23,712 bases of DNA from a virus: IMG/VR virus record IMGVR_UViG_3300032278_002022, positions 1 through 23,712 of that record. The stretch is one strand, 5' to 3'. Positions 6,577 to 22,771 of the stretch are shown piece after piece; the first letter of the stretch is position 1, and the number at the start of each line of letters is the position of its first letter. The notes beneath the pieces are model-generated. The model was not told the DNA's origin, did no database searches, and saw nothing but the letters and a program-made list of their open reading frames with translations. The position numbers were made by a program, and so were the translations under genes.

Positions 6577-7269
6577 CTACAACTTAGGATTTAAGTAGTT
6601 GATTAAGTGCTCTTCAAAGTGTCTATATTCACGATCCTTATGATGCCATAGATAAGGGTCAACATTTTCACGTTCGTTTTCAGGTAATTTATGGTACATA
6701 AAGTTATTACCACAAAAAGAAAACAAATCAATAATATTTTTATTATTTTTTATTAAATTTATCTTTGAAAACCCTTTGTATCCTGCTAAATGTTTTGTTT
6801 CAAAGTTGTTAATCATATCACACATCAAATATTTGATTCCTTTAGCTTCAAAAAAAGATGCTAATAGTATTATGTCAGTAAACATCTTATCCCAGTATGT
6901 TCTAATGTTTGGAACACAGCCATGATAGTACGGAACTAACTTTTTAAATTTATCTTCTGGAACTAAACTTAAATCAATTTTGTCTAATCCCAGGTTTGGT
7001 TCTTCAAGTACAGGGTGCCATGTACCATCAAGCTCGTCGTCTTTCTTAGCTATTGCCATTTCCCATCTGTGAGCATATGTAATTGGAATTATTGCAAATT
7101 TTGGATTGCCATTTTGTGCTATCCATTCAACAGTAGATCGTAATGTTCTAGGAAAGCTAGTGCCATCCTTGCCAATGTTAACAGTTTTTGTACATCCTAA
7201 TTTGTTTTGAAATTCTTTACTGACATTCCATACTCTTGCAATACTGCAACCATTTATTAATAATGTCAT
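6577..7269 (-). CDS. SGNH-hydrolase-like phage protein
   Basis: A 230-residue soluble protein. The N-terminus LLINGCSIARVW (3-14) has the beta-strand plus Gly-x-Ser layout of SGNH/GDSL block I (S9 as possible nucleophile). DGTSFPRT (35-42) could be the oxyanion-hole region, and DPYLWHHKD with later His residues (204-221) near the C-terminus resembles the block V Asp/His segment. The match is weaker than in the 263-residue protein at 10741-11532, so catalytic activity is uncertain. It starts five bases after the tailspike stop codon and is probably cotranscribed with it. This position would suit a tail-associated esterase or deacetylase that trims host surface polysaccharide, but that is inference from location. 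Confidence 0.5.
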   Translation of the reverse strand: MTLLINGCSIARVWNVSKEFQNKLGCTKTVNIGKDGTSFPRTLRSTVEWIAQNGNPKFAIIPITYAHRWEMAIAKKDDELDGTWHPVLEEPNLGLDKIDLSLVPEDKFKKLVPYYHGCVPNIRTYWDKMFTDIILLASFFEAKGIKYLMCDMINNFETKHLAGYKGFSKINLIKNNKNIIDLFSFCGNNFMYHKLPENERENVDPYLWHHKDREYRHFEEHLINYLNPKL

Positions 7270-7274
7270 TCTTA

Positions 7275-8849
7275 TTATGCTATAATTGTAACCTGGTAAT
7301 CAAGTGTGGCAACAACGTCATCAGTTGTAATGTATCGTAATAATAATGTTTCGTCGCCAGCAGTAGAATCTTGGTGAGACATTTCTGCTGAAAGAGTTAC
7401 GCCAACATCTGCACCGCTTTCTGTAAATGTATCGTCATATTGTACACCGTTTGTTGATGCACTAACAACAAATTCACCTGTTCTATCTTTTGTTCCTCTT
7501 ACTATTTTATAAGTTATTTTTAAACCTTTTCCTGCTAATGCTGGATATTCGTTTATGGTGGCGGCCGACGATTGGTTGTTTGTTAAAGTTGCTTGTTTAA
7601 TTGCTTTTGTTGTTATTCCAATTCCTTGTAAGTCTGGAGCGGCATTTAAATTTGTACCGCCGTGTGCTATTCTTAAATCTGTTCTTTCAAAAAAGTCTAA
7701 TACCGAACTGCATTCATCTCTGTCATATTGTATTATAGGTACTTCACGAATTGATCCAACACCTTCAAAATTATTTGCTACCTCTAGTCCATACCAATTA
7801 CCTTGTGAAATAATATTTCTTATGTCTCCTGTAGCACCTTCAACCCAAATAGCTTGTTGTCCAATATTGCTCCAACTATTACCATTAAATTGAACATCTC
7901 TTGGACCTACTGTTAAACCATTTGCAGAACCATCAGTGTGTTCTCCAATTCTAGCACCGTAGTATCCAATTGTAAAATCACAATTAAGAAATTTTACATT
8001 TGTAACGTCGTAATCTAAATCAACTAATCTAGCAAATTTTGTAAACTGACATTGATCAAATATAATGTTAGAAGATTTGTGAGTATTTGTACTTCTAATT
8101 GTAACACCTTTTGAGTCAACCGCATCTACACCGTTCACCGCATATGTTCCTACAAATTTACAATTTCGTAGATACACGTAAGTTGCACAATCAATTGACA
8201 ATCCTGCTTTTGCTTCGCCATTATAAAAACAAATTCCTTCTATTTGAATTTGTGTAGGTGTAGTTGTAGTAATTGCTCCAAAGACATTTGTGTTGTTATC
8301 TTCTGTTACTGCCACAGGTGCGTTTCCACCTGCTTGATAAAATACAGTTTTGCCTGGACCTTCTCCTCTTAAATGTGCATAAGGTGGAATTTTAATAGAT
8401 CCTGATATGTTATAAGTTCCAGCTGGAAAAAATAAAATTCTTCTTGCTTGAACTTCTGCTTGATCTGTGTCCGAATATAATTCTTCTATTGCTAATTGTA
8501 TTGCTGTTAAGTCTGCTGTTGAACCATCTCCTACAGCACCAAAATCTTTTACAGATACATATTCATCTAATTTTGTTTGTAATGTTCTTGAAACAGTAAG
8601 ATTAGCACTTGGTGTTGCATCTCCGTCATAACCTTTATATTGATAAGTTAATGCGGTTGTAAATGCTGATGATCCAGCAGTCATAATTTCTGTATTGCCT
8701 ACTGCTGGTGCTCCATCGGCTACCGTGCCGTTTCCTATATATAATTTTTGATTGTCAACAGACCAACCTATTTCTCCAGCCGCTAATTGCGGAAGATCAG
8801 TAGCTTTTCCACGTCTGTGTTGTATTCTTGATATCTGTACTATTGGCAT
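7275..8849 (-). CDS. Tailspike/tail fibre with Mtd-like N-terminus and pectate-lyase beta-helix
   Basis: A 524-residue receptor-binding protein candidate. Residues 4-42 (QHRRGKATDLPQLAAGEIGW and LYIGNG) match the short virion-attachment module seen at the N-terminus of Mtd-like and many marine phage tail fibres. Residues 97-120 (EYVSVKDFGAVGDGSTADLT) are the classic opening of the pectate lyase superfamily 3 right-handed beta-helix, followed by FPAGTYNISGSIKIP and repeated short strands through about 370. The last 130 residues form a separate beta-rich, Thr-rich domain, possibly for trimerisation or receptor contact. CATAAATA lies eight bases before the ATG. The downstream SGNH-like protein is probably cotranscribed. 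The enzymatic specificity of the helix cannot be read from sequence. Confidence 0.85.
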   Translation of the reverse strand: MPIVQISRIQHRRGKATDLPQLAAGEIGWSVDNQKLYIGNGTVADGAPAVGNTEIMTAGSSAFTTALTYQYKGYDGDATPSANLTVSRTLQTKLDEYVSVKDFGAVGDGSTADLTAIQLAIEELYSDTDQAEVQARRILFFPAGTYNISGSIKIPPYAHLRGEGPGKTVFYQAGGNAPVAVTEDNNTNVFGAITTTTPTQIQIEGICFYNGEAKAGLSIDCATYVYLRNCKFVGTYAVNGVDAVDSKGVTIRSTNTHKSSNIIFDQCQFTKFARLVDLDYDVTNVKFLNCDFTIGYYGARIGEHTDGSANGLTVGPRDVQFNGNSWSNIGQQAIWVEGATGDIRNIISQGNWYGLEVANNFEGVGSIREVPIIQYDRDECSSVLDFFERTDLRIAHGGTNLNAAPDLQGIGITTKAIKQATLTNNQSSAATINEYPALAGKGLKITYKIVRGTKDRTGEFVVSASTNGVQYDDTFTESGADVGVTLSAEMSHQDSTAGDETLLLRYITTDDVVATLDYQVTIIA

Positions 8850-8857
8850 ATTAAGTA

Positions 8858-8865
8858 TATTTATG
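8858..8865 (-). promoter_or_regulatory. Late promoter CATAAATA before tailspike gene
   Basis: A 7 of 8 match to TATAAATA, eight bases before the ATG at 8849, overlapping the stop codon of the upstream radical SAM gene. Confidence 0.55.
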
Positions 8866-10036
8866 TCCAGGATGGATTGAACGTTTTAACAAAATTTGTG
8901 CTTCTAATTGAGTCTAGCATTTTAACATATTCTTTAAATCTATTATGTAGAGCAGGATTAAATTTATAAGTATTTGCCCATTTTTGTATTGCATTTTTTT
9001 GTTTAAATGTACATAAATTAAGCCATGTTTTGAAGTTATCTACATCTTTTTCTGATGCAGAATGTATTGTTAGATGTCCGGAGCCATCAACAGATCCAGG
9101 ATATATTTCACCTAAATTTATATTAATGTTATTGTCATTTGCAAATGCTACAACATCTTTAATAGTAAAAAGAGAGGTGTGTTGAAATATGTAATGAATG
9201 TATACCTTTATATTGTTAAATTTTTTAAGTTTCTCAAAATTTTCAGATATAGTGCTCCATTTACTACCGTTTCTCAAATAATCATTGTGTGGACCAACTC
9301 CATCGATACTTGCATCTATTGTAATATGATTAAATTTTTTTAGTGCATTTAATACTCTATCATTAATACGTGTCATATTAGTATTAAATGTAAGAATAGT
9401 TTTTGGATCCATGGCATTTAATACTTCAACTAACATTGGACTTATAAAAGGTTCACCACCTCCAAAGTTTATTCCACGAGCTTTTGATACAACATCTAAC
9501 ATTATTTCTTTATTGTGATCGTATGCATACCAGTCATGAGGAGTATTTGGATCTCCCCAAGTTTGTTCTATACCCAAGTCTTTATATTTTTTTTCATTCA
9601 TTTTATATTCAGCTAATATACTGCTACTAGCATAAGGACCACACATGATACATTTTAAATTACAATAATTACCAAGTCTTAATTCAACGTGTGAAGGATA
9701 TTCTTTATTGTTCCAATTGTTTTTTATATTTTCAAATGTACTTTGAGTTTTTTTATTTGTTACAATTCTATGATGTCCTAGGTCGGGATTGTTTTCTTTG
9801 CTTATACAATATTCACAACCAGGATCTATTTCACCATTAAGCATTTTTTTTCTTAATGGTTCTAATCCTTTCTCCCACCAGTCTTTGAACATTTTAGTAT
9901 TTTTAGCATTTAATTTGTAAGGAGCAAGTTTTGATTTATCAGTCATAAACTCACAGCAAGGAGCCAACGTGCCATCAGTATCTATTACTGCTGTTTTAAA
10001 AGGTGCACTGCAAAATTTATTTGGTTGACTAGACAT
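8861..10036 (-). CDS. Radical SAM protein with N-terminal auxiliary Cys domain
   Basis: A 391-residue enzyme. The radical SAM cluster motif CNLKCIMC (C125, C129, C132) binds the 4Fe-4S cluster and SAM; FGGGEPF (191-197) is the GGE motif that contacts SAM, and TIDASIDG is a conserved barrel strand. A separate N-terminal region holds five Cys: C9, then APCC (27-28), then GCEYC (74-77). This resembles half of a SPASM/twitch auxiliary cluster domain placed before the barrel. The frame could open at a TTG at 10042, but ATG at 10036 follows a GTTAAATA motif by six bases and starts the homologous region. It shares this layout with the gene at 12569. The substrate is unknown; SPASM/twitch relatives usually modify peptides or carbon-linked scaffolds. 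Confidence 0.88.
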   Translation of the reverse strand: MSSQPNKFCSAPFKTAVIDTDGTLAPCCEFMTDKSKLAPYKLNAKNTKMFKDWWEKGLEPLRKKMLNGEIDPGCEYCISKENNPDLGHHRIVTNKKTQSTFENIKNNWNNKEYPSHVELRLGNYCNLKCIMCGPYASSSILAEYKMNEKKYKDLGIEQTWGDPNTPHDWYAYDHNKEIMLDVVSKARGINFGGGEPFISPMLVEVLNAMDPKTILTFNTNMTRINDRVLNALKKFNHITIDASIDGVGPHNDYLRNGSKWSTISENFEKLKKFNNIKVYIHYIFQHTSLFTIKDVVAFANDNNININLGEIYPGSVDGSGHLTIHSASEKDVDNFKTWLNLCTFKQKNAIQKWANTYKFNPALHNRFKEYVKMLDSIRSTNFVKTFNPSWT

Positions 10037-10042
10037 CAACAA

Positions 10043-10050
10043 TATTTAAC
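10043..10050 (-). promoter_or_regulatory. Late-promoter-like GTTAAATA
   Basis: Six bases before the ATG at 10036, reaching the last base of the exonuclease gene; 6 of 8 match to the late consensus. Confidence 0.4.
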
Positions 10051-10754
10051 TAAAGTATTTTTTGGTAATATTCTTCTAGTTTAGTATACCACTTACCAAC
10101 CCATTGATCGTAATTGTCTATTTCAAATGTTTGATATTCGTTGTTTTGTGTGCAAATAAAAATTCTACCCGATTTAATTTGCGTATCGTATTGTTTATTG
10201 TGTGCTTCAGAATATGCAACTAATTGAAGATAATAATCTTCTACCCATTCTTTCTTTTTTAATTTTCTAGATTGTTTAAAATCCATTATAGCAGGTGCAC
10301 CTTTGTATACACCAACCAAGTCAGTTGTTCCTGCATATAATTCTGGGTAGTGTAAAGAAACTTCTGATCCCCAAACTTCACTAACATCTTTTAATCCATT
10401 ATCGATAATAACGTTAGCCATCGCGTGTGCTTTTTGATGTATAAGATTTGATCCAGGTTTTCTTTCAATACCTTTTACGTGTTTCTCTAAAGAGTTGTGC
10501 ATCACTGTTCCAATGTTTGCAGATTCTTGTGTAATTTGTTGTGCTTTTGCTTCACCTATTCTTTTTCGCCATGCGTGTAAATGTCTCATATCTTTTGTAG
10601 CAGATAGCACAGTGGTCACTGAAGGGATAGTTCTTCCGTCAGGAGTCTCGTAATGTCTATTACCATTTTTCATAGTTTTAGAAAGACTACTATAAGGATA
10701 TTTTTGTATATATGCTATGCCTTTACTTTTTAATACGTCTTCAGATATTTTCAT
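10050..10754 (-). CDS. PD-(D/E)XK exonuclease (MGME1/Cas4/RecB-like)
   Basis: A 234-residue nuclease of the PD-(D/E)XK superfamily. Visible elements in order: GTVMHNSLEKH (82-92), the N-terminal His-containing helix; a Glu at 131; AGTTDLVG (141-148) with the first catalytic Asp D145; MDFKQS (157-162), the D-x-K catalytic pair D158 and K160; and QLVAYSEA (177-184), the Q-x3-Y motif of RecB/Cas4-type enzymes. It probably degrades or processes single-stranded DNA ends during replication or recombination, as in relatives found in T4-like marine phages. No Fe-S cysteines of Cas4 are present, so it is nearer the MGME1-type exonucleases. It overlaps the upstream SGNH gene by 14 bases, and both genes begin with almost the same 19 bases. 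Confidence 0.85.
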   Translation of the reverse strand: MKISEDVLKSKGIAYIQKYPYSSLSKTMKNGNRHYETPDGRTIPSVTTVLSATKDMRHLHAWRKRIGEAKAQQITQESANIGTVMHNSLEKHVKGIERKPGSNLIHQKAHAMANVIIDNGLKDVSEVWGSEVSLHYPELYAGTTDLVGVYKGAPAIMDFKQSRKLKKKEWVEDYYLQLVAYSEAHNKQYDTQIKSGRIFICTQNNEYQTFEIDNYDQWVGKWYTKLEEYYQKIL

Positions 10755-11532
10755 TTAAAACTTTAATTATTTTTTCTGCTAATTCATTATGTGCTTTTTG
10801 ATTTACGTGTCCACCAGGACAAAAATAAGGTGCATCCATATTTTGAACCTGTGGAAAACAAATAGTTTTTGAATCTAAATCGTCGATACTTTTTACAATC
10901 ATATTGGGTACATTTTGTATACTTTTAATTTCATTAAATGTGCCATTATTAATTAACCACCAATCAATAACATTTTTATGATTTTTTATATATGATATTA
11001 ATGTTATAAAAGTATTGTACCAAGTAACTAAATTGCTGTAATCAGTGTTGTGTGAAACTTTAAATTTAAAATAGTCTGTTGCGAATTCCATATCACCATA
11101 CATTTTATTAAAATATTTTGTACCTAGGTGTGTTGCATTAATGTCTTTCCATTTACCATTTAAATATTCACACCAACGTTCTATTCCAGTAGGCTGTAAA
11201 AATATAATAATTTTTTTGTCTGTATTTTCTAATAAAGAGATAATGTTTCTTAACATTGATTGAAAACTGATTCCAGCAGTTCCATGGTTAGTTCCTCCCA
11301 TTATACCAGCATAGGATTTTTGTTTTTGTTTTATAATATGTTGGTCGTATTCTTGTCCTGTAAGTTTACTCCAAATTTTAGGATTTGTTTCAAACCAAGT
11401 TGAATTGAGTAATTCCTTGTAGTTACAATAAGCAGGATAGTTATCATAATATTGATAATCTAATAGCTCGTCACCAGCAGTGAAACTATCCCCAAAAAAA
11501 TGCATTTGGTAATCATCTTTGGATATTTTCAT
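10741..11532 (-). CDS. SGNH/GDSL hydrolase family protein
   Basis: A 263-residue protein with recognisable SGNH blocks. Block I is FFGDSFTAGDE (12-22), with nucleophile S16. A Gly/Asn segment GGTNHGTAG (79-87) could form the oxyanion hole. Block V is CPGGHVNQKAHNEL (238-251) with the catalytic His H242. Such enzymes are esterases, often acetyl-polysaccharide deacetylases. No signal peptide or transmembrane helix is seen, so it would act in the cytoplasm or as a virion part. It is the first gene of the minus-strand run, divergent from the radical SAM cassette with only 20 bases between start codons. It overlaps the exonuclease gene by 14 bases. The substrate is unknown; acting on a sugar modified by the nearby enzymes is a speculation. 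Confidence 0.75.
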   Translation of the reverse strand: MKISKDDYQMHFFGDSFTAGDELLDYQYYDNYPAYCNYKELLNSTWFETNPKIWSKLTGQEYDQHIIKQKQKSYAGIMGGTNHGTAGISFQSMLRNIISLLENTDKKIIIFLQPTGIERWCEYLNGKWKDINATHLGTKYFNKMYGDMEFATDYFKFKVSHNTDYSNLVTWYNTFITLISYIKNHKNVIDWWLINNGTFNEIKSIQNVPNMIVKSIDDLDSKTICFPQVQNMDAPYFCPGGHVNQKAHNELAEKIIKVLNENI

Positions 11533-11533
11533 A

Positions 11534-11547
11534 TGTATAATTATACA
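11534..11547. promoter_or_regulatory. Perfect 14-bp palindrome forming two overlapping TATAAT boxes
   Basis: TGTATAATTATACA lies in the 20-base space between divergent start codons (11532 minus, 11553 plus). It contains TATAAT on both strands (plus 11536-11541, minus 11545-11540). On the minus strand a TTGTAA at 11563-11568 sits 17 bases upstream as a -35, inside the first codons of the plus-strand gene. Both transcripts would be leaderless or nearly so. It could also be an operator. Confidence 0.55.
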
Positions 11548-11552
11548 ATATA

Positions 11553-12569
11553 ATGCCTTATATTACAATAGACAATCTTACGAGCATAATGGCCGAGATG
11601 TCTGATTATTGCAACGCCGCTTGTCCTATGTGTAATAGATATGATTGGAATTTAAATTTAATAAAAGAAATTACCAATACTCATCACACTACTTTAGATT
11701 TTGTTAAACAGAGGATTGGCGAAGAAGTTATATCTAAACTAGAAGGTTGGGTATGCCAAGGAACTTATGGTGATGCATTAATGAATCCTGAAACAATAGA
11801 TATATTCAAATATTTAAAAGAAGTAAATCCTAATATAAACATAGGAATGATAACAAATGGTGGAGCAAGGAGTGTAGATTTTTGGAAAACATTGGCTGAA
11901 CTTAACGTAAATGTAACGTTCAGCATCGACGGACTAGAAGACACTAATCATCTTTACAGAAGGAATGTCAAATGGGACCGTTTAATGAAAAATGTAAATG
12001 CTTTTATTAGTAATGGAGGTAATGCTATATGGAGTTTTTTAGTTTTTAAACATAATCAGAATCAGATAGAAGATGCTAAAAAGTTATCAAAAGAATTAGG
12101 GTTTAAAGATTTTGAATATGCGTTTAGTGAACGATGGCAGGATTTTAATAGTGAAGGAAAGTATAGAGATATTACATCACTTAAAGTAGATGATTATATT
12201 ATTGAAAAGCCAGAAGAACAGAGAAAAGAGTTTATTAGAACACAAGGAGAACTAACTAGGAGTAAAAATGTTTTTCAAACAGAAGATAAAAACGATTTTC
12301 ATACAAGAAAGATATCTTGCTGGGCGTGTCAACCAACTAAACGTGAAATATATCTTCGTGCAAATGGATACGTAAGTCCTTGTTGTATACTTGGCGATGT
12401 AGAAAGAAACGAGCCAAAGCAGTTAATAAAAGATTATAAAAAGATAAATCTGCACCATACAGATCTAAAAACTATTTTAGAAGGAGACTTTTTTAGAGAT
12501 ATAAGTGATGGCATAAATGGTGGAGAAAAAAGATTACAAGGGTGTTATCACGCCTGTGGAGTGAAATAA
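11553..12569 (+). CDS. Radical SAM/SPASM-like protein, cassette gene 1
   Basis: A 338-residue enzyme. The cluster motif CNAACPMC (C20, C24, C27) is near the N-terminus, so the barrel starts at once. The usual GGE position reads GTYGDALMNP (70-79), with Gly-Asp in place of Gly-Glu. TFSIDGLEDTNHLYRRN (122-138) is the conserved barrel strand and substrate loop. The C-terminus has a SPASM-like auxiliary cluster set: C256, C259, C277, C278, C331 and C335, around NGYVSPCCILGD. It is a clear paralogue of the gene at 13867. Its stop overlaps the next ATG (TAATG). SPASM enzymes mostly act on peptides or proteins, some on other scaffolds; the substrate here is unknown. Confidence 0.88.
   Translation: MPYITIDNLTSIMAEMSDYCNAACPMCNRYDWNLNLIKEITNTHHTTLDFVKQRIGEEVISKLEGWVCQGTYGDALMNPETIDIFKYLKEVNPNINIGMITNGGARSVDFWKTLAELNVNVTFSIDGLEDTNHLYRRNVKWDRLMKNVNAFISNGGNAIWSFLVFKHNQNQIEDAKKLSKELGFKDFEYAFSERWQDFNSEGKYRDITSLKVDDYIIEKPEEQRKEFIRTQGELTRSKNVFQTEDKNDFHTRKISCWACQPTKREIYLRANGYVSPCCILGDVERNEPKQLIKDYKKINLHHTDLKTILEGDFFRDISDGINGGEKRLQGCYHACGVK
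11935..11977 (+). repeat. Near-identical 43-bp tract shared with 14249-14291 (copy 1)
   Basis: It matches the second copy at 41 of 43 positions with an uninterrupted identical run of 26 bases (11943-11968). The tract encodes the EDTNHLYRRNVKWD region of the two radical SAM paralogues, which are much more divergent on either side. Confidence 0.85.
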
Positions 12570-13870
12570 TGGGTATATCAAAGCAACCGCCAAAACCATT
12601 TCCTATTAAAAAAGGATTACCATGTCAGTTGAAATGGACTCACTCGACAATATATCTTACTGATGGCCTTAGTGCAAGTTGTCATAGAGTACAAGGTGAT
12701 CCACTTGAAATGAGAAATGGTGAATTGAATTTTCATAATTTACCAGCCAAACTTGAAGCAAGACGTAAAATGTTACGTGGTGAATGGCCAGGAAGAGGTT
12801 GTGAACATTGTAAGCATATTGAAGAAGCTGGTGGAACGTCAGATAGACAAGTTCATTTACATATGGAAGGTACGACTGCTCCACCAGAGTTAGATAATGA
12901 TTTAGAAGCAGTAGATGTTACTCCAAGACAACTAGAAGTGTATTGGGGAAATACTTGTAATCAAAAATGCATATATTGTGGTGCTCATTATAGTTCACAA
13001 ATACATCAAGAAGAAAAACGTTTTGGTTATTTTAATAAAGAAGGTGTGCGATTAGATGATACAGATTTTACTTTAAATCCAAATATAGAAAGAGATACTG
13101 AAAGATTATTTGCATGGTTTGAGAATAACATACACAAACTACACAAAGTTTTTGTATTAGGAGGAGAGCCATTTTTACAAAAAGAAACATTTAGATTTAT
13201 AGAATTTTTAGAGAAAAGAGAACTACCAGATTTAACTTTATGCTTTTTTAGTAATCACAATGTAGAACATGATAGATTTAAAAGCTGGGTAGGTAGATTA
13301 GATAAAATGGTTAAAGAAGGTAGACTAGATAAACTACAGATTATTGCATCATGTGATGCTTGGGGACCAGCAGGAGAGTATGTGCGTACAGGAATAGATT
13401 TACCTTTATTACAAAAGAATTTTGAATATGTGTTAAATGAAACAGAAACATTACAAGGAATAAATTCTGCATTAACAGTGACAGCAGTACCAGGTATGCC
13501 AGAAATGGTTAAAATGATAAACAACTGGTCAAAAGTTAGACCAGTGTATTGGAGTATGATGAAAGCTAGTCAATATGAGCTAGGAGAAAGACCATACTTG
13601 TATCCTGGAATATTTGGTAGAAAAATAAATGATATAGGGCTACAAGAAGCTGTTGATTTATTTGAAGTAAACCATAATGGGGAACCAGATTCAGTTAAAG
13701 TAAATCATAAAAAGTTTATGCAGGGTAACATAATTGAGTTTGAAAATAGAGAACCAAGTTTATTAAGACAAAAACAATTTAAAATATACTTAAAAGAATT
13801 AGATCGTAGACGTGGAACAGATTACACCAAGGTTTATCCACAAATTGCAGAATGGATAAAGGAATTATGA
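12569..13870 (+). CDS. Radical SAM protein with N-terminal auxiliary Cys domain, cassette gene 2
   Basis: A 433-residue enzyme with the cluster motif CNQKCIYC (C130, C134, C137) and a canonical GGE motif, VLGGEPF (196-202). An N-terminal domain carries C19, C38, C78 and C81 (GLPCQLKW, SASCHRV, GCEHCKH), the same layout as in the 391-residue protein at 8861: a leading Cys, a Cys after a DG(T/L) turn, a basic helix and a C-x2-C. This suggests an auxiliary Fe-S domain placed before the barrel. The open frame reaches back to 12542, but the ATG at 12569 overlaps the stop of gene 1 as TAATG and begins the natural sequence. It ends by overlapping gene 3 as ATGA. Placement between two paralogues implies joint action on one pathway. 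Confidence 0.88.
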   Translation: MGISKQPPKPFPIKKGLPCQLKWTHSTIYLTDGLSASCHRVQGDPLEMRNGELNFHNLPAKLEARRKMLRGEWPGRGCEHCKHIEEAGGTSDRQVHLHMEGTTAPPELDNDLEAVDVTPRQLEVYWGNTCNQKCIYCGAHYSSQIHQEEKRFGYFNKEGVRLDDTDFTLNPNIERDTERLFAWFENNIHKLHKVFVLGGEPFLQKETFRFIEFLEKRELPDLTLCFFSNHNVEHDRFKSWVGRLDKMVKEGRLDKLQIIASCDAWGPAGEYVRTGIDLPLLQKNFEYVLNETETLQGINSALTVTAVPGMPEMVKMINNWSKVRPVYWSMMKASQYELGERPYLYPGIFGRKINDIGLQEAVDLFEVNHNGEPDSVKVNHKKFMQGNIIEFENREPSLLRQKQFKIYLKELDRRRGTDYTKVYPQIAEWIKEL

Positions 13871-14853
13871 GTTATATAACAATAGACAATTTAAATGTTA
13901 TAAATGTAGAACTTACAGATTATTGTAATGCGGCTTGTCCAATGTGTTCAAGATTTAAATGGGACGGTAGTTTATACAAAGAAAAAGTAAATTCTAATCA
14001 TACATCACTATCTTTAATTAAAGATAAAATTTCAATTAAAGTAATTAAACAATTAAAAAAATTTTATTCAGTTGGTACGTTTGGAGATCCATTAATGAAT
14101 CCAGAGTGCTTTCAAATATACGAATGGATTAAATTGAATAATGATAATTGTAAATTAGAAATGCATTCTAATGGTGGTGGAAGGAGTATAAGTTTTTGGT
14201 CAGCATTAGGATCGCTTGGCGTAGGAGTTGTGTTTGGTCTCGATGGAATAGAAGATACTAATCATCTTTACAGAAGGAATGTTAAATGGGATAAGGTAAT
14301 GGAAAATGTTAAGGCTTTTATTAGTGCCGGAGGTAAAGCATATTGGAAGTTTTTAATCTTTAAGCATAATGAACATCAAATAGAAGAAGCTAGAGAGTTG
14401 TCTAAAAAATTAGGGTTTATAGAGTTTACTCCGGAGTATTCTGATCGTTGGAAAACATCTAATTGGGTAACAGGGGAAACTATTGATGTCAAAGACTGGA
14501 ATGGTATTGAGAAGCCAGAGTCTCAAAAAGTTGATCATAGAATAAAATCAGTACGAGTGTATGAAGAAGAAAAATTTAATTTACAAAAAAAATTAGTATG
14601 TCATATGGCATCAAACAACACTTATGAAATTTATATACGTGCTAATGGTTATGTACAGCCTTGCTGTATGTTAGGAGATATAGATGTACATGAATCGAAA
14701 AGATTAATAAAAGATTTTGATTTAGTAAATCTTAATAAAACATCATTAGAAGATATATTAAATGGAGACTTCTTTAAGTCTTTAGATAACGGTATTAATA
14801 AAGGTACGCCCGAAAGACTTAAGAATTGTTTTTATGCTTGTGGAATAAATTAA
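13867..14853 (+). CDS. Radical SAM/SPASM-like protein, cassette gene 3 (paralogue of gene 1)
   Basis: A 328-residue enzyme with the cluster motif CNAACPMC (C20, C24, C27), GTFGDPLMNP in place of the GGE motif, VFGLDGIEDTNHLYRRN in the barrel, and the C-terminal Cys set (VCHMAS, NGYVQPCCMLGD, NCFYACG). One Cys of the gene 1 pair C256/C259 is missing: VCHMA has a single Cys where gene 1 has CWAC, so the auxiliary cluster may be bound differently. An ATG at 13852 is in frame, but the ATG at 13867 has AAAGGA just before it, overlaps the previous stop as ATGA, and matches the start of gene 1 (YITIDNL). Its stop codon directly abuts the stop codon of the convergent gene at 14854. Confidence 0.88.
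   Translation: MSYITIDNLNVINVELTDYCNAACPMCSRFKWDGSLYKEKVNSNHTSLSLIKDKISIKVIKQLKKFYSVGTFGDPLMNPECFQIYEWIKLNNDNCKLEMHSNGGGRSISFWSALGSLGVGVVFGLDGIEDTNHLYRRNVKWDKVMENVKAFISAGGKAYWKFLIFKHNEHQIEEARELSKKLGFIEFTPEYSDRWKTSNWVTGETIDVKDWNGIEKPESQKVDHRIKSVRVYEEEKFNLQKKLVCHMASNNTYEIYIRANGYVQPCCMLGDIDVHESKRLIKDFDLVNLNKTSLEDILNGDFFKSLDNGINKGTPERLKNCFYACGIN
14249..14291 (+). repeat. Near-identical 43-bp tract shared with 11935-11977 (copy 2)
   Basis: Second copy of the tract, with identical 26-base core at 14257-14282. The two mismatches are synonymous C/T changes. Confidence 0.85.
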
Positions 14854-15225
14854 TTATCTTCTTCTGTTCATAGCAGATTTGGCCATCTGTTTAACTTTAT
14901 CTGTAGAACCTTGATTGTCAAAATCCATTTCAGGATCTGTTTCTGCATCTTTTTCTGTTTTAATTTTAATTGTTTCTTGATCAAAATCTGCTACAACGTT
15001 TTTTAATGCATCACCACTATCGTACATCTGTTTAAACAGATCATAAGAGAATGCTGGATAACCTGTGTTAGCCATTATACCTTTTACAGCATCAAAACTT
15101 ATTTCTGTAGATTGATTTTTATCATCAGCATCGCCTTTCATATTCAATAAGGTATTGATTAATGCTGACTCTACCTCTTTGTTATTACCTTCGCTTAATT
15201 TATTTTTGAATTCTGTGAATCGCAT
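14854..15225 (-). CDS. Conserved phage protein with possible prohead-protease site
   Basis: A 123-residue acidic protein with a basic tail (KQMAKSAMNRRR). It resembles small conserved proteins of T4-like marine phages by general features; I do not know a function. The N-terminus reads MRFTEFKNKLSEGNN. LSE followed by Gly fits the (I/L)-x-E|(G/A) site cut by T4 gp21-type prohead proteases, and a short leader before such a site is typical of proteins packed in the prohead. AAGGAAG gives a good ribosome binding site ten bases before the ATG. It lies four bases after the stop of the 288-residue gene, with which it is presumably cotranscribed. The role as an internal head protein is inference. Confidence 0.72.
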   Translation of the reverse strand: MRFTEFKNKLSEGNNKEVESALINTLLNMKGDADDKNQSTEISFDAVKGIMANTGYPAFSYDLFKQMYDSGDALKNVVADFDQETIKIKTEKDAETDPEMDFDNQGSTDKVKQMAKSAMNRRR

Positions 15226-15229
15226 GGAA

Positions 15230-16096
15230 TTACTTCCTTGCTAGTTTGGAATATATTCTATTAGATTGTTCAAATACTTCTTTGGATTCTCTTTGTTCTC
15301 TACCTTCAGGATCTGTTCCACCTGCTTCAGCATCCACGGCACCAAATTCATCTGCTTCTGGACCTTCTAAGCTATCCAAATCAGCATCTGCTTCTGGTTC
15401 AGTATTCATTGTGTCGCCAGCACCCATAGTGTCTGTTGTCGTTTCTTCACCTGTAAGTACTCTTACACCGTTATCTAACTCTGTTCGAGTTGTTGAAAGT
15501 GTTGCTTCTGCCTGCTCTAGAGCAGGTTGAATTTTTTGCATGAAAGCATCTGCCTTTTCTGCTCCCATTTCATCTCTAATTCTGTCTGAAAGTTCTAATA
15601 AACTTTCTGTTTTCATTGTTGCTAAATCTTCTAAGTAACCTGTAACTTTATCCATCATATCTTTAGCCGCAAGTATTAATTCTGATTGTTCTTCTACACC
15701 TTCTTTAACATTTTCACTGTTCATAAGTTTTGCCGCCGCTTGTCTTTCGTCAGGACTTAATGCTTGTCCTTTTCCAAGTTTATCTTTAATTGGTTTTTTT
15801 GCTTTATCTATTATTGGATTAGGGTTGTCTCCTGCAGGATTTTGTACATATTCTTTAATTGCTTGGTTTAATACATCAAGCATCATTTGACTCTTTTGAT
15901 AGTCGTGGTTTCTTAGTTCTTCACCAAAATGTTCGTTTTGAGTAATATTGTGAATTTTAGTTCTAACTTTATTTGCAGTATCTTCTAACTCTTCTCTAGT
16001 AAATCTGCTTAAATCCATTGTTTGATTAAAACGAGATTCAAATTCTGATAGTAAAGACTCTGTTGTAACTGGTTTTGTTAGCTCTATGCTCTGCAT
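15230..16096 (-). CDS. Putative virion/head-associated protein, helical with acidic C-terminus
   Basis: A 288-residue, almost entirely helical protein. Residues about 1-215 are amphipathic, probably coiled-coil helices (for example ESLLELSDRIRDEMGAEKAD). Residues 218-275 are a very acidic, Gly/Glu/Asp-rich low-complexity segment, and the end is basic (IYSKLARK). This composition resembles scaffold or prohead core proteins and other head-assembly proteins of T4-like phages, but I cannot assign a name. An ACTAAATA late-like motif ends five bases before the ATG. The following gene starts four bases after its stop. An unstructured acidic tail can also serve a DNA-mimic or chaperone role. Confidence 0.75.
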   Translation of the reverse strand: MQSIELTKPVTTESLLSEFESRFNQTMDLSRFTREELEDTANKVRTKIHNITQNEHFGEELRNHDYQKSQMMLDVLNQAIKEYVQNPAGDNPNPIIDKAKKPIKDKLGKGQALSPDERQAAAKLMNSENVKEGVEEQSELILAAKDMMDKVTGYLEDLATMKTESLLELSDRIRDEMGAEKADAFMQKIQPALEQAEATLSTTRTELDNGVRVLTGEETTTDTMGAGDTMNTEPEADADLDSLEGPEADEFGAVDAEAGGTDPEGREQRESKEVFEQSNRIYSKLARK

Positions 16097-18387: not shown

Positions 18388-18792
18388 TTATACAACTGCC
18401 GTAAGTAATATACCTATGTCTGTTGCAGTAGCTACAGATGACGCAACGTTTGCCGTAACGTTACCTGCACCGTTTAATGCTCTGATGTCCGCTTGTAGCG
18501 TACCACCTGAGAGTAATGTACCTAGGCTGTCTGTTCTTACTGTGTAAGTCTTTTGTTTTCCACTGTCAACCAACGGTCCTTCTGAAAGGATGTTAATGTG
18601 CTGACTGATAACTGATCTTACTGCCTCTAAACCTGCTGTTGCAGATCCAGTTCTTAAGTCTCCAGTTTCAGACGCCATAGAGTTGACAAAGTCTACAGTA
18701 AAAGAAGATGTTGCTACACCTTCTAGTTCCATATTTGTGCCGTGAACGAAGTTTTGTCCGCCACCTGCCGCTTTCGTTTGATCGAATGCCAT
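18388..18792 (-). CDS. Small structural protein, tandem paralogue 3
   Basis: A 134-residue Gly/Ala/Thr/Ser-rich protein. It shares an overall pattern with the two upstream genes: an N-terminal AAGGGQNF stretch, an FTVDFVNSM strand, GPLVDSGKQKTYTVRTDSL in the middle and an IRALNG strand near the end, then a hydrophobic C-terminus. GAGGAG eight bases before the ATG is a strong ribosome binding site. Such compositions and expression signals fit an abundant virion protein, such as a capsid decoration or tail-sheath accessory protein. It is the last gene before the terminator. I do not recognise a named family. Function is inferred from composition, paralogy and translation signals. Confidence 0.75.
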   Translation of the reverse strand: MAFDQTKAAGGGQNFVHGTNMELEGVATSSFTVDFVNSMASETGDLRTGSATAGLEAVRSVISQHINILSEGPLVDSGKQKTYTVRTDSLGTLLSGGTLQADIRALNGAGNVTANVASSVATATDIGILLTAVV

Positions 18793-18811
18793 CTGTTATT
18801 CTCCTCTATCC

Positions 18812-19240
18812 TTATGCTACAACTGCCGCAGTTAGAATACCTAATTGCGTGTGTGTTGCAGTAGTGGCACCATTTTGACCTGTAACTGCTCTAAGAGCCG
18901 TTTGTAAAGTCGCTAATGATCCACCGCTTGTTGTTTCAGTAAACGTAAAAGATCCACCTGCACTTGCCGGAGCACCAACAAAATTGTCAGTTCCTTCAGT
19001 CATGTAAGTCTTTTGCTTGTTTGATTCTACTAAAGGTCCAGCCGCTACAATGTTACCGTATATTCTGATACAGTTTTCTGCAGTGTATTGGTCTTCGTCT
19101 TTAGCTGTTTGACCGTTCATGGCGTCAACAAAGTCAACTGTAAAGAATTCTAATTCTTTACCCATGCCGTCATATTTTGATGTTGCATTAAAAGAAGTGT
19201 TCGGTTCTCCTCCTGCAACTGATCCTGCTGTATAAGCCAT
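18812..19240 (-). CDS. Small structural protein, tandem paralogue 2
   Basis: A 142-residue protein with the same design: TAGSVAGGEPN at the start, LEFFTVDFVDAM, GPLVESNKQKTY, LQTALRAVTGQNG, and LGILTAAVVA at the C-terminus, close to the DIGILLTAVV end of the gene at 18388. A Gly/Ser/Thr-rich insertion (about 88-110) is specific to this copy. A perfect AGGAGG lies eight bases before the ATG. It lies between its two relatives with short spacers of 19 and 25 bases. No signal peptide is present. An abundant virion surface protein is the most likely role. Confidence 0.75.
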   Translation of the reverse strand: MAYTAGSVAGGEPNTSFNATSKYDGMGKELEFFTVDFVDAMNGQTAKDEDQYTAENCIRIYGNIVAAGPLVESNKQKTYMTEGTDNFVGAPASAGGSFTFTETTSGGSLATLQTALRAVTGQNGATTATHTQLGILTAAVVA

Positions 19241-19265
19241 ATTATTTTCCTCCTATAACCTATTA

Positions 19266-19679
19266 TTACGCCATTGCAGTAAGTTTACCCATATCTCTAT
19301 CAGCCGCTGTTGCAGATGATATAGTTAAAGTAATCTTAGCATTGGAGTTTAACGCTCGAATAGCCGCTTGAATTGCCGCTACTGTTGTCGTTCCACTTAA
19401 TGTGTCTAATGAGTCTCGTCTAACCATCCAAGTATGTTCGTGAGCCGCAGATATAACACCATTTCCTAAGATGTTAACGCCTTGGTTTTCGATTGCTTCT
19501 CTGATCATGTGAAGACCCGCTGTGTTAGCCGCCGCGTATGGATGAGTAACCTCAGCCGTTGCCGTAGCTAGTAAGTCAACAGTTAGAAAGTCAACCTGTA
19601 CACCTTCATGCTCTTGAGCAAGATTTGGTGATACAAAGTTTCCGTGACCGCCTGCGACTAGTGTGCCTGTGTATGCCAT
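19266..19679 (-). CDS. Small structural protein, tandem paralogue 1
   Basis: A 137-residue protein: TGTLVAGGHGNFVSP, EGVQVDFLTVDLL, INILGNG-like GVNILGNGVI, HTWMVRRDSLDTL and AIQAAIRALNSN repeat the block order of the other two. AGGAGG precedes the ATG by eight bases. This is the first gene of the three-gene operon, with an ACTAAATA late-like motif 65 bases upstream and a hairpin (19716-19734) in the leader. The leader and Shine-Dalgarno separate these genes from the leaderless-looking late genes elsewhere in the window and imply high-level translation. Probable major minor-virion or decoration protein. Confidence 0.75.
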   Translation of the reverse strand: MAYTGTLVAGGHGNFVSPNLAQEHEGVQVDFLTVDLLATATAEVTHPYAAANTAGLHMIREAIENQGVNILGNGVISAAHEHTWMVRRDSLDTLSGTTTVAAIQAAIRALNSNAKITLTISSATAADRDMGKLTAMA

Positions 19680-19715
19680 TTTTAATCCTCCTATTTTCTC
19701 TGATTATTTGGCTTT

Positions 19716-19734
19716 AGTCACCGCTCAGGTGACT
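19716..19734. promoter_or_regulatory. Hairpin in the leader of the structural operon
   Basis: AGTCACC (19716-19722) and GGTGACT (19728-19734) form a perfect 7-bp stem with a 5-base loop. On the minus strand it falls between the ACTAAATA motif and the first Shine-Dalgarno, and no T-run follows, so an mRNA-stabilising or processing element is likelier than a terminator. Confidence 0.55.
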
Positions 19735-19743
19735 GTATGTTTC

Positions 19744-19751
19744 TATTTAGT
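19744..19751 (-). promoter_or_regulatory. Late-promoter-like ACTAAATA for the structural operon
   Basis: It lies 65 bases before the ATG at 19679 and just before the leader hairpin; 6 of 8 match to TATAAATA. Confidence 0.4.
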
Positions 19752-19774
19752 GAATGATCTGGTAAATTCAGTAG

Positions 19775-20395
19775 TTATATTACTATTTTGTTCAAATTTG
19801 TCCAAATTTCGTCAGATCTAGTTCTTTTTATAAAATTATAGTTCAAACGAAGCAGAATTCTTTTTATCCTCTTACAAGTTTTTGGACGTTTCCTATCTTT
19901 CATTTCAACATTAATAACTGGATTATTTCTTTTAATAGTATTTTCTGCACCCAGAAGAACTTCAACTTCAAATCCATCTACATCAATTTTAATAAAATCT
20001 ATGTCATTTAAATTAAAACTATCTAGTGTTCGACATTTTATATTACCAGGTATATTTGTTAATGTTGTAGAATTAAATTCCTGTGATGCTGTATGTTCCT
20101 TATTAGACAATCCATATTGAAATAATTGTACGTTAGTTTCATGTATGTTTTTATTAAAGCATTCTATAAAATTAGGATTAGGTTCAAAGCAATATACTTG
20201 TTCAAACTTTTGTGCAAGTTCACGAGTCCACATACCAACATTACTGCCTATGTCTATACAGTTTCTCCAACGTTTAACATACTTTAGTGCTGTCTTTCGT
20301 TGGGTTGGTTGACTGTCTTTTTCTTCGCATTCTACTAAGGTAGGTTTGATATGCGGTCCATATAGCACCCAAAATTTATGATCTGTAGGTTCCAT
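19775..20395 (-). CDS. FkbM-family SAM-dependent methyltransferase
   Basis: A 206-residue Rossmann-fold methyltransferase. Motif I is CIDIGSNVGMWT (46-57), which binds SAM; YCFEPNPNF (68-76) is the acidic loop that binds the ribose, and DFIKIDVDGFEVEVLLGAE (133-151) is the signature region of FkbM-type enzymes that often methylate hydroxyl groups on sugars or other natural products. Its N-terminal 40 residues are short and its C-terminal third is basic. It sits between structural paralogues, with ATTAAATA ending six bases before the ATG. It may methylate a glycan on the virion or the host, or another small acceptor; the target is not visible. The FkbM call is firm. Confidence 0.88.
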   Translation of the reverse strand: MEPTDHKFWVLYGPHIKPTLVECEEKDSQPTQRKTALKYVKRWRNCIDIGSNVGMWTRELAQKFEQVYCFEPNPNFIECFNKNIHETNVQLFQYGLSNKEHTASQEFNSTTLTNIPGNIKCRTLDSFNLNDIDFIKIDVDGFEVEVLLGAENTIKRNNPVINVEMKDRKRPKTCKRIKRILLRLNYNFIKRTRSDEIWTNLNKIVI

Positions 20396-20401
20396 TAAAG
20401 T

Positions 20402-20409
20402 TATTTAAT
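20402..20409 (-). promoter_or_regulatory. Late-promoter-like ATTAAATA before the methyltransferase gene
   Basis: It ends six bases before the ATG at 20395 in the 38-base intergenic gap; same octamer as before nrdB and the 211-residue gene. Confidence 0.45.
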
Positions 20410-20433
20410 TACAAAGAATTAGTATATAATTTT

Positions 20434-20808
20434 TTAAGAGTTATCTAGTTTTAGTTCAGTAAGTGTAACGACTGAGCCTGATACGTCGACATTGTTTACG
20501 CCAACAGTAGTACCCATATCTCGTATTGCTGTTTGAAGTGTTGCGGCAGTCCATCCTGGTCGTTCCATACTAACATCCATTCTACCTGATGCCGCATCGT
20601 CGATACGTTGATAAAGTATAGTACCTCGTAATAGGAGTGTTCTAATTAAATTGTGTATTGTTTCATCATAACCTAATTCTGTACGTACATCAATTGCAGA
20701 TGCACCAACATTTTTTAGTGTAATATGAAAGAACTTTACTTCTGCACCGGCAAAGTTGTCAGTAGTTCCAATTGCATTAGTTACTTTAAAATTGTTTGGT
20801 GTTGCCAT
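20434..20808 (-). CDS. Small structural protein, divergent fourth paralogue
   Basis: A 124-residue protein that keeps the plan of the three tandem genes: an N-terminal TDNFAGAEVKFFHITLKNVG aligns with EFFTVDFVDAM, IHNLIRTLLLRGTILYQ with the INIL region, and LQTAIRDMGTTVG with LQTALRAVTGQ. The central KQKTY/VRxDSL segment is missing, so it is diverged. AATAAATA ends seven bases before the ATG and there is no Shine-Dalgarno, unlike its relatives. A virion structural role is likely by paralogy. Confidence 0.68.
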   Translation of the reverse strand: MATPNNFKVTNAIGTTDNFAGAEVKFFHITLKNVGASAIDVRTELGYDETIHNLIRTLLLRGTILYQRIDDAASGRMDVSMERPGWTAATLQTAIRDMGTTVGVNNVDVSGSVVTLTELKLDNS

Positions 20809-21709: not shown

Positions 21710-22771
21710 ATGCAACGTAATTTTTTCTTAACGGATACAATGAAAACTGGTAATCATCAGACGTTTGAGCGGTTTTTAGATACCCATTCATTGCCAGATC
21801 AAAAAATAGATTATACTGGAGAATATTATACTCTACACAATTATGATTTAGATTCATATGATAGGAAATTTGCTTTAATTGATAGACGAATAGATAATGT
21901 TAGATTATTCAATAATGTAGAATATGAAAAAGAATTGTTAACAAGAATTAATTTATTACATAGTCAAGGATTTAAATTTATAATGGCATCTCCTTGGGAA
22001 TCGCATGAAAATATTCAGTCTGGCAAGGTATATCCAAACAATATAGGAGAAGTAGAATCTTTTAATTGGACAGGAGGAACAAGCTGGTTCTGGTTTTATA
22101 TGTACTATAAACATTTGAATAATAAATTTAAATCTACCCATGATCATTTTGGAAGTTATTGGTATAAAAAACATGATTTTTTATATTTGAATAAGCAACC
22201 AAGAGACCACAGAGTTATATTATATAATAAATTATTAAAAGAAAATGTATTATCAAATAGTATATACACTAATTGGCCAACTAGAAAGCTACCACCTGAG
22301 TATGAACTACCGTGGGCACAGAATTATCCACAATATGGTCTAGATCAAGACATTTATGAACAACCATATGTTGATACAGTTTGCTCAATAGTTTCTGAAA
22401 CTAATGATAATGATACAGATGTATTCATGACTGAAAAAATATGGAAACCTATTATTGCTCAACAAGTATTTGTAGTTCATGGAAATCATTTATATCTACA
22501 AAAATTAAGAGAGATGGGTTTTAAAACGTTTGGTTCTTATTTTGATGAGTCATATGATTTAGAACATGATAGAGATAAAAAAATAGATGCTATTGTTTCT
22601 TTGTGTAAAGATTTAAGAACAAAAGATTGGCAAGATATATATCGTCAGACAATTGTATTGAGACAACATAATTATGATACACTTTTTAATAAAGAAAAGT
22701 TAAGTGTGGAAGTTAATAAAACTTTAATTAGTTTTTTGGAATTTTTTGATAACGGACAAGTTTCTTCTTGA
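21710..22771 (+). CDS. Glycosyltransferase-like protein (GT10-like C-terminal motif)
   Basis: A 353-residue soluble protein. The middle holds DFLYLNKQPRDHRVILYNKL (156-175), a strand-loop segment with an Asn-x-x-x-R/H pattern common in phage-encoded glycosyltransferases. The C-terminal domain has SIVSETN (226-232) followed by DVFMTEKIWKPI (237-248), which resembles the donor-nucleotide site of GT10 (alpha-1,3-fucosyltransferase-type) enzymes (x-TEK-x-W-x-x), then GFKTF and DESYD (279-283). It may act on a host or virion glycan. No Shine-Dalgarno is clear; an ATG at 21740 (MKTGNHQTF) is an alternative start. The 3' end overlaps the convergent gene by 48 bases. It is alone on its strand. Confidence 0.65.
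   Translation: MQRNFFLTDTMKTGNHQTFERFLDTHSLPDQKIDYTGEYYTLHNYDLDSYDRKFALIDRRIDNVRLFNNVEYEKELLTRINLLHSQGFKFIMASPWESHENIQSGKVYPNNIGEVESFNWTGGTSWFWFYMYYKHLNNKFKSTHDHFGSYWYKKHDFLYLNKQPRDHRVILYNKLLKENVLSNSIYTNWPTRKLPPEYELPWAQNYPQYGLDQDIYEQPYVDTVCSIVSETNDNDTDVFMTEKIWKPIIAQQVFVVHGNHLYLQKLREMGFKTFGSYFDESYDLEHDRDKKIDAIVSLCKDLRTKDWQDIYRQTIVLRQHNYDTLFNKEKLSVEVNKTLISFLEFFDNGQVSS

Follow-up and report, generated by a model that had tools for sequence, protein, structure and literature searches.

Radical SAM genes of a marine T4-like phage fill a dedicated exchange slot in the fibre region and may tailor sugars concerned with host recognition

Why would a virus carry three overlapping radical S-adenosylmethionine (SAM) genes close to a tail-fibre gene, and do the three work as one enzyme? 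The question is raised by IMG/VR virus record IMGVR_UViG_3300032278_002022, a 23.7 kb virus fragment whose whole stretch of 23,712 nt was analysed here and is called the window. A preliminary description of this DNA had noted a paralogue, non-paralogue, paralogue order coupled by TAATG and ATGA, and the open frames, their overlaps, the 50% identity of the outer two proteins (A-type alignment) and the separate family of the middle one bear this out. RS1 occupies 11553-12569 on the plus strand (338 amino acids [aa], with the motif CNAACPMC and a C-terminal twitch/SPASM-like domain), RS2 occupies 12569-13870 on the plus strand (433 aa from the ATG at 12569, with CNQKCIYC and GGEP), and RS3, the paralogue of RS1, occupies 13867-14853 on the plus strand (328 aa from the ATG at 13867). 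Read in the sequence, the RS1/RS2 overlap is TAATG within GAAATAATGGGT and the RS2/RS3 overlap is ATGA within GGAATTATGAGT. The genes flanking the trio are on the minus strand, so that the trio does run against the backbone, and the fourth radical SAM gene reported at 8861 is there as well: RS4 (8861-10042, minus strand) lies between the fibre and exonuclease genes. All four of the four radical SAM domains detected in the record are those of RS1 to RS4, and this clustering, together with the low substitution ratios of the trio given below, makes the arrangement more than a chance one. For this analysis, we labelled the RS1/RS3 kind A-type and the RS2/RS4 kind B-type; gene calls were mechanical, taking the longest open frame.

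A backbone protein of the window shares 37-39% identity with proteins from T4-like cyanophages, from Pelagibacter phage HTVC008M and from Methylophilales phage Melnitz, and we therefore take the window to derive from a T4-like marine phage. Among phage isolates we found no DNA-level relatives of the window and only distant protein relatives (RS3, 24%, Campylobacter phage; RS4, 23-25%, Vibrio phage; RS2, none), and a backbone structural gene of this lineage had no match among phage isolate records. The material compared is made up of genome fragments; metagenome contigs may be mis-assembled, yet the key arrangements recur in many of them.

Comparison with relatives shows that the trio currently occupies a slot in the fibre region that is dedicated to the exchange of radical SAM genes. 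We defined the slot as the stretch between the gene for a PD-(D/E)XK-type exonuclease, its left border in relatives (10050-10754, minus strand; phrog_298, E 1.6e-51, and synteny), and the gene for a 123-aa backbone protein, p123, its right border (14854-15225, minus strand; synteny in all occupied and empty sites), whose stop codon abuts the radical SAM stop codon. The RS2 family was found at 40 viral loci, with 62-100% identity over the full length. It adjoins this same backbone gene at 39 of them, transcribed against the backbone, and RS2 is thus the core gene resident in the slot; the exception is locus L188, where a relocated RS2 again has fibre-like genes upstream. RS2 is the only radical SAM gene in the slot at 13 of the 40 loci, is accompanied by an A-type gene at 19 and by B-type genes only at 6, and 2 loci were left unclassed. 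As an unbiased bait we used the gene for a 288-aa virion structural protein beyond the right border (15230-16096, minus strand; phrog_14154, virion structural, E 2.4e-12), which gave 57 contigs showing both borders. The slot was empty in 11 of these, held at least one radical SAM gene in 44 and held something else in 2, fractions that are approximate, since the contigs are partly non-independent and the window was chosen for its radical SAM genes. Recurrent fillings in this set were B-A on the minus strand (9 contigs), RS2 only (5), B only (5) and A-B-RS2 (3). Deduplication of all loci left 64 distinct sites (37 with radical SAM genes only, 17 with radical SAM and other genes, 8 empty and 2 with other contents), and we used the 57-contig set for slot fractions because the 64-site set is biased by radical SAM baits.

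Outside the window and the near-identical record L001/L165, we did not see the exact order A-RS2-A. What had been described as a three-gene cassette is thus present as such in the window, but it represents one of several arrangements of a variable locus rather than a conserved unit. B-type genes at the place of RS4, between the fibre and the exonuclease, also occur in L002, L178, L221 and L222 and mark a second B-type site. A glutathione-peroxidase-family gene recurs with B-type genes at the slot (L167:8628-9047, PF00255, E 4e-15; L241, L245, L254, L264 and others); the PF00255 match comes from L167, and the 126-aa versions of the gene look similar.

In a tree of the slot A-type genes, RS1 falls in a well-supported group of genes located upstream of RS2, and RS3 falls in a separate group located downstream of it, with the minus-strand A-type genes of the slot forming a third. 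These separate positional groups make RS1 and RS3 old position-specific paralogues rather than products of a recent duplication, and in the window the two lineages meet at RS2. Remnants of RS1, with the downstream radical SAM genes kept, were found at three loci: MPYITTDNLTHGMR followed by a stop in L193 (1149-1193), MSYITTINLTSIMACGVN followed by a stop on the minus strand of L230, where the first codons are joined in frame to the last four, and a 15-codon stub, MSYFTTDYITNEHLL followed by a stop, in L179 (4208-4255). The leader of 14-18 codons left over in L193 and L230 still overlaps or abuts the next gene. Going by their sequences, all three remnants are products of near-complete deletions. 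A-type genes have also been kept without RS2, in L234, L255 and L257. Together with the remnants, these loci indicate that the trio is a state of a modular site and not an obligate three-part enzyme. The idea of an obligate complex was accordingly rejected: its members come and go one at a time, and RS2 can be the sole radical SAM gene of its slot.

Between RS1 and its divergent neighbour, a gene for an SGNH/GDSL-like protein (10741-11532, minus strand; GDSF motif; weak PF13472 match, E 0.023), there are 20 bp (11533-11552) that hold the palindromic box TATAATTATA. In the form (T)ATAATTATA, the box is present in 24 of 33 distinct divergent plus-strand slot junctions, compared to 82 of 18,041 (0.45%) background 90-nt pieces. 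It would give TATAAT on each strand, with sigma-70-like matches on both, and probably represents two overlapping divergent -10 elements serving RS1 and the SGNH gene. Sigma-70-like matches as such were no commoner than in shuffled sequence, and the count of ATAATTATA in the window alone was not above chance, the box being informative only by its conserved place across loci; nor was the late T4-type promoter TATAAATA above chance in the window. Empty slots carry a TTGxxx-TATAxT arrangement upstream of the exonuclease gene instead. Slots with RS2 only measure 1296-1367 bp, compared to about 1.3 kb for the gene itself, and because they have no spare length we conclude that no precursor peptide travels with RS2. 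With the trio genes overlapping and no room in the RS2-only slots, we found no adjacent precursor peptide, in agreement with the preliminary description.

The radical SAM domain PF04055 scored above its cut-off in all three proteins of the trio (50.5 bits for RS1 and 37 bits for RS3), and the C-terminal SPASM domain PF13186 did so in RS1 (24.1 bits) and RS3 (34.6 bits) and not in RS2. RS2 (213 bits) and RS4 (238 bits) pass the 170-bit cut-off of NF033640 (N_Twi_rSAM) over nearly their full length and share with this family the N-terminal twitch cysteines, CxxxCxxC and GGEP. RS1 (59 bits) and RS3 (64 bits) differ and fall far under the cut-off, leaving RS2 and RS4 as the only members. Among 32 aligned B-type proteins, C19, G33xxxxC38 and C78xxC81, preceding C130xxxC134xxC137 and GGEP, are invariant or nearly so, and the N-terminal part of the alignment matches the twitch of BtrN (E 5e-4). 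Among 32 A-type proteins, the CxxxCxxC triad and C245, C266, C321 and C325 are invariant and C267 nearly so, and GD(P/A)xM stands in place of the usual GGE motif. All catalytic cysteines and the other conserved residues of both alignments are present in the window proteins. The four invariant C-terminal cysteines of the A-type proteins form a twitch-like set and predict one auxiliary cluster, not the seven-cysteine, two-cluster arrangement of a full SPASM domain. No NCBIfam cut-off for a cofactor or tRNA radical SAM equivalog (MoaA, QueE, NirJ, ThiH and others) was reached, MoaA scoring 13-25 bits vs. 284. The earlier view of phage-encoded modification enzymes of no assigned function is supported in this respect.

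The two types are found together well beyond this lineage. An A-type query recovered 166 viral relatives, and in 80 loci examined A- and B-type genes repeatedly stand side by side, for example in BBBA operons; of 57 bacterial loci where a strong A-type gene occurs, 23 place a B-type gene no more than three genes away, mostly in Bdellovibrionota. The co-occurrence anticipated for the trio therefore holds for the two radical SAM types, in phages and Bdellovibrionota, although the precise trio does not recur. Two phage contigs (L048 and L012) each carry 18 radical SAM domains, almost all of them in a single operon of overlapping genes, and a 735-aa protein has two fused radical SAM domains (L283:6906-9113). 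Contig L225, which belongs to the phage lineage of the window, comes from the same metagenome-assembled genome (MED657) as the 18-domain contigs, and a TctA-family tricarboxylate transporter gene (L284:5983-8456, PF01970) with a TctC-like gene lies on the same contig as an 18-domain operon. A module that recurs in Bdellovibrionota (L094, L096, L098, L109, L112 and L118) comprises an A-type protein, a B-type protein, a third radical SAM type (xxIPFDxIxxVGQxSLL...SCSYCWPY), a DGDN-motif protein and a methyltransferase-like protein.

We favor, with a probability of roughly four in ten, the reading that the substrate tailored by these enzymes is a sugar, a nucleotide-sugar or a glycan with a part in host recognition. 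Sugar chemistry is favored because of the neighbors that these genes have across phages. In other phages, 25 of 135 genes of fitting size that lie no more than two genes from a radical SAM gene encoded SGNH proteins, compared to 5 of 189 such genes further away (odds ratio 8.4, p 2e-6), an enrichment that is motif-based and draws on partly redundant related loci. Glycosyltransferases resembling glycogenin (E 1e-5 in profile comparison with glycogenins of the PDB) stand in pairs beside BBBA operons; an 18-domain contig encodes UDP-glucose/GDP-mannose dehydrogenase, NAD epimerase, carbamoyltransferase and glycosyltransferase-like proteins next to fibre-type genes; and in Campylobacter phage CP220 the cluster of five radical SAM genes is accompanied by an amidinotransferase and by two proteins with nucleotide-diphospho-sugar transferase folds. 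The best fold match of RS3, BlsE, and a published pelagimyophage island in which glycosyltransferases occur together with radical SAM cassettes (PMC7029224) also speak for this reading. We did not lean on a further partner family (A4, with the DGDN motif or 'SYDEPNAD'), which has a weak GT2 match and no PDB match, and profile-profile comparison found the two glycosyltransferase-like partner families unrelated to each other.

In the favored sugar reading, RS1, RS2 and RS3 would be joined by translational coupling and read from the divergent promoter-like box, with RS1 and RS3 acting as separate accessory enzymes, each predicted to have one auxiliary Fe-S site. From what is known of the family, each enzyme would cleave SAM at the [4Fe-4S] cluster held by CxxxCxxC and take hydrogen from an unactivated carbon, while the twitch cluster would position or oxidize the substrate. 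The enzymes would thereby dehydrogenate, epimerize, deoxygenate or otherwise alter the sugar, nucleotide-sugar or glycan, which could be a host envelope polysaccharide during infection or a glycan of the virion, and enzyme swapping at one slot would allow quick change of the modification.

Several points weigh against this. Between its borders the slot holds no direct sugar-pathway gene, and within the lineage its radical SAM content showed no association with FkbM, SGNH or small structural genes (all p > 0.2, small sample). Of the partners proposed earlier, SGNH proteins are supported by their enrichment in other phages, and glycosyltransferases by their recurrence there. Promoter and substrate are inferred. 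The place beside fibres fits protein modification equally; this fibre-region placement was judged from neighbors, and VrlC and gp14, the borders of a published host-recognition island, were not identified in the window. Folds do not settle the matter. The AlphaFold2 single-chain model of RS3 is good (pLDDT 86) and has BlsE (7vob) as its best PDB match (TM score 0.59), but the peptide maturases SkfB (6efn), SuiB and anSME fit almost as well, and CteB and EpeE are also close behind. BlsE acts on a sugar nucleoside. The modelled RS3 shares with BlsE, SkfB, SuiB and anSME a radical SAM barrel followed by a C-terminal auxiliary-cluster domain, and differs in its low identity of 11-17% and its four C-terminal cysteines. 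The RS2 model (pLDDT 83, fair) matches through the radical SAM core only, with viperin, BlsE and SkfB first and TM scores up to 0.35-0.39 on the query. Likeness to sugar-tailoring enzymes of the BlsE, BtrN, DesII and AprD4 type would lie in fold similarity and neighbor genes, and on these models the fold alone does not decide between a sugar and a peptide substrate.

Second in order, and somewhat less probable, is that the enzymes modify a virion protein post-translationally, for example by a cross-link, an epimerization or a reaction resembling hydroxylation; the simplest targets would be the tail fibre next to the slot and other structural proteins encoded by the backbone. SPASM/twitch radical SAM proteins mostly modify peptides or proteins, and the resemblance of RS3 to peptide maturases agrees with this. 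The slot adjoins structural genes and the fibre or spike gene (7275-8849, minus strand; Mtd_N, PF18454, E 1.7e-10, and a pectate-lyase-like beta-helix, PF12708, E 5e-14), the relocated RS2 again has fibre-like genes upstream, and an aspartyl/asparaginyl hydroxylase family occurs together with radical SAM genes in L012, L033, L048 and L077. However, phages with an empty slot retain the fibre, exonuclease and p123 genes. A Pfam scan of the trio found no recognition element (RRE, PqqD-like) beyond the radical SAM and SPASM domains, though RRE domains can escape Pfam, and the A-type cysteines fall short of the full SPASM set. Rates of evolution also differ: against nearest relatives, the ratio of nonsynonymous to synonymous substitution (dN/dS) was 0.07 for RS1, 0.08 for RS2, 0.14 for RS3 and 0.09 for the neighboring exonuclease, values that place RS1, RS2 and RS3 under purifying selection, while the fibre diverges much faster (dN/dS 0.36, 68% identity) than RS2 (0.08-0.14). 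The slow RS2 next to a fast fibre, along with the missing precursor peptide, weakens both the fibre as substrate and a ribosomally synthesized and post-translationally modified peptide.

It is improbable, though less so than the absence of any common purpose, that the substrate is a small molecule, be it a cofactor, a nucleotide analogue or a metabolite of the host, and that the enzymes serve, for instance, in antiviral defence or superinfection exclusion in the manner of viperin. Viperin is the best fold match of the RS2 core (E 6e-6), RS4 matches pVip models (E 1e-6 at best), and radical SAM genes occur singly in the slot, with no peptide partner. These matches are limited to the radical SAM core, viperin NF038283 reaches 14-23 bits vs. 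its cut-off of 180, and defence-system models gave only partial viperin core matches on the window; auxiliary-cluster domains and sugar-gene neighbors are, moreover, atypical of viperins. Least likely is that the slot is a neutral landing place where radical SAM genes pile up by local homologous recombination with one another and have little common purpose, as RS1 remnants, strand changes, empty sites and the fast-diverging RS4 (51% identity, dN/dS 0.45) would allow, against which stand the purifying selection on RS1 to RS3, the position-specific lineages and a conserved RS2 at a conserved place.

Phage clusters of several radical SAM genes were published in 2010, 2017 and 2020 with no function given (PMC2853527, PMC5332604 and PMC7029224). 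In Campylobacter phages CP220 and CPt10, radical SAM genes form clusters of five that are interchangeable (PMC2853527); like the slot, these are tandem genes in an exchangeable module with sugar-transferase-like genes, and RS3 finds CP220 at 24% identity, but the amidinotransferase content and the phage lineage differ and the two radical SAM types are not matched one to one. The marine T4-like genome TARA_ERS488813_N000010 similarly holds many radical SAM genes, 12 in all, treated only as an Fe-S protein load (PMC5332604). A similar setting is described for pelagimyophages, T4-like phages of the sea whose host-recognition island combines glycosyltransferases with cassettes of radical SAM genes at the fibres, the cassettes varying among close relatives (PMC7029224). 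The window holds a fibre, a weakly assigned GT10-like gene and variable radical SAM genes, and the published account gives no slot, families, core gene or remnants. Within the literature searched, the new elements are the dedicated slot with its empty sites, RS2 as its core gene, partners tied to their position, the remnants, the box at the junctions and an A-B pairing that also occurs in bacteria.

Close relatives with an empty slot, RS2 only, RS2 with one or two partners, or other radical SAM genes constitute a natural experiment, and the comparison names RS2 as the retained enzyme and narrows the search for a substrate, there being no precursor peptide alongside. A broader proposal, which we regard as doubtful, is that a reserved slot with a resident RS2 and interchangeable partners builds phage-specific radical modifications of surface or virion glycans, a counter-recognition chemistry shared in outline with the multi-radical-SAM operons (up to 18 domains) of other phages and the paired enzymes of predatory bacteria. 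A glycan substrate would mean a new route for phages to alter recognition. A virion-protein substrate would mean radical modification of a virion, of which we know no example.

Other genes of the window were assigned as well, among them partners named in the preliminary description. The FkbM-family methyltransferase (19775-20395, minus strand) is supported by PF05050 (E 4e-16) and TIGR01444 (85.5 bits, over the cut-off). A possible GT10-like glycosyltransferase, a core gene of the phage lineage by synteny (21710-22771, plus strand), is weakly assigned, one of nine family members matching PF00852 (E 0.008), and no sulfotransferase was found in the window by Pfam or NCBIfam. A second SGNH-like protein (6577-7269, minus strand) has a weak DUF6071 match (PF19547, E 0.023). 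Four short paralogue-like proteins of 124-142 aa with an FFTVDF-like motif (18388-20808), whose number differs between relatives, are perhaps virion decoration proteins. The window also encodes a phage version of ribosomal protein bL12 (128-526; PF00542, E 1e-24) and an FTR1-family iron permease (601-1191; PF03239, E 8e-10), which may bear on the iron that Fe-S enzymes require.

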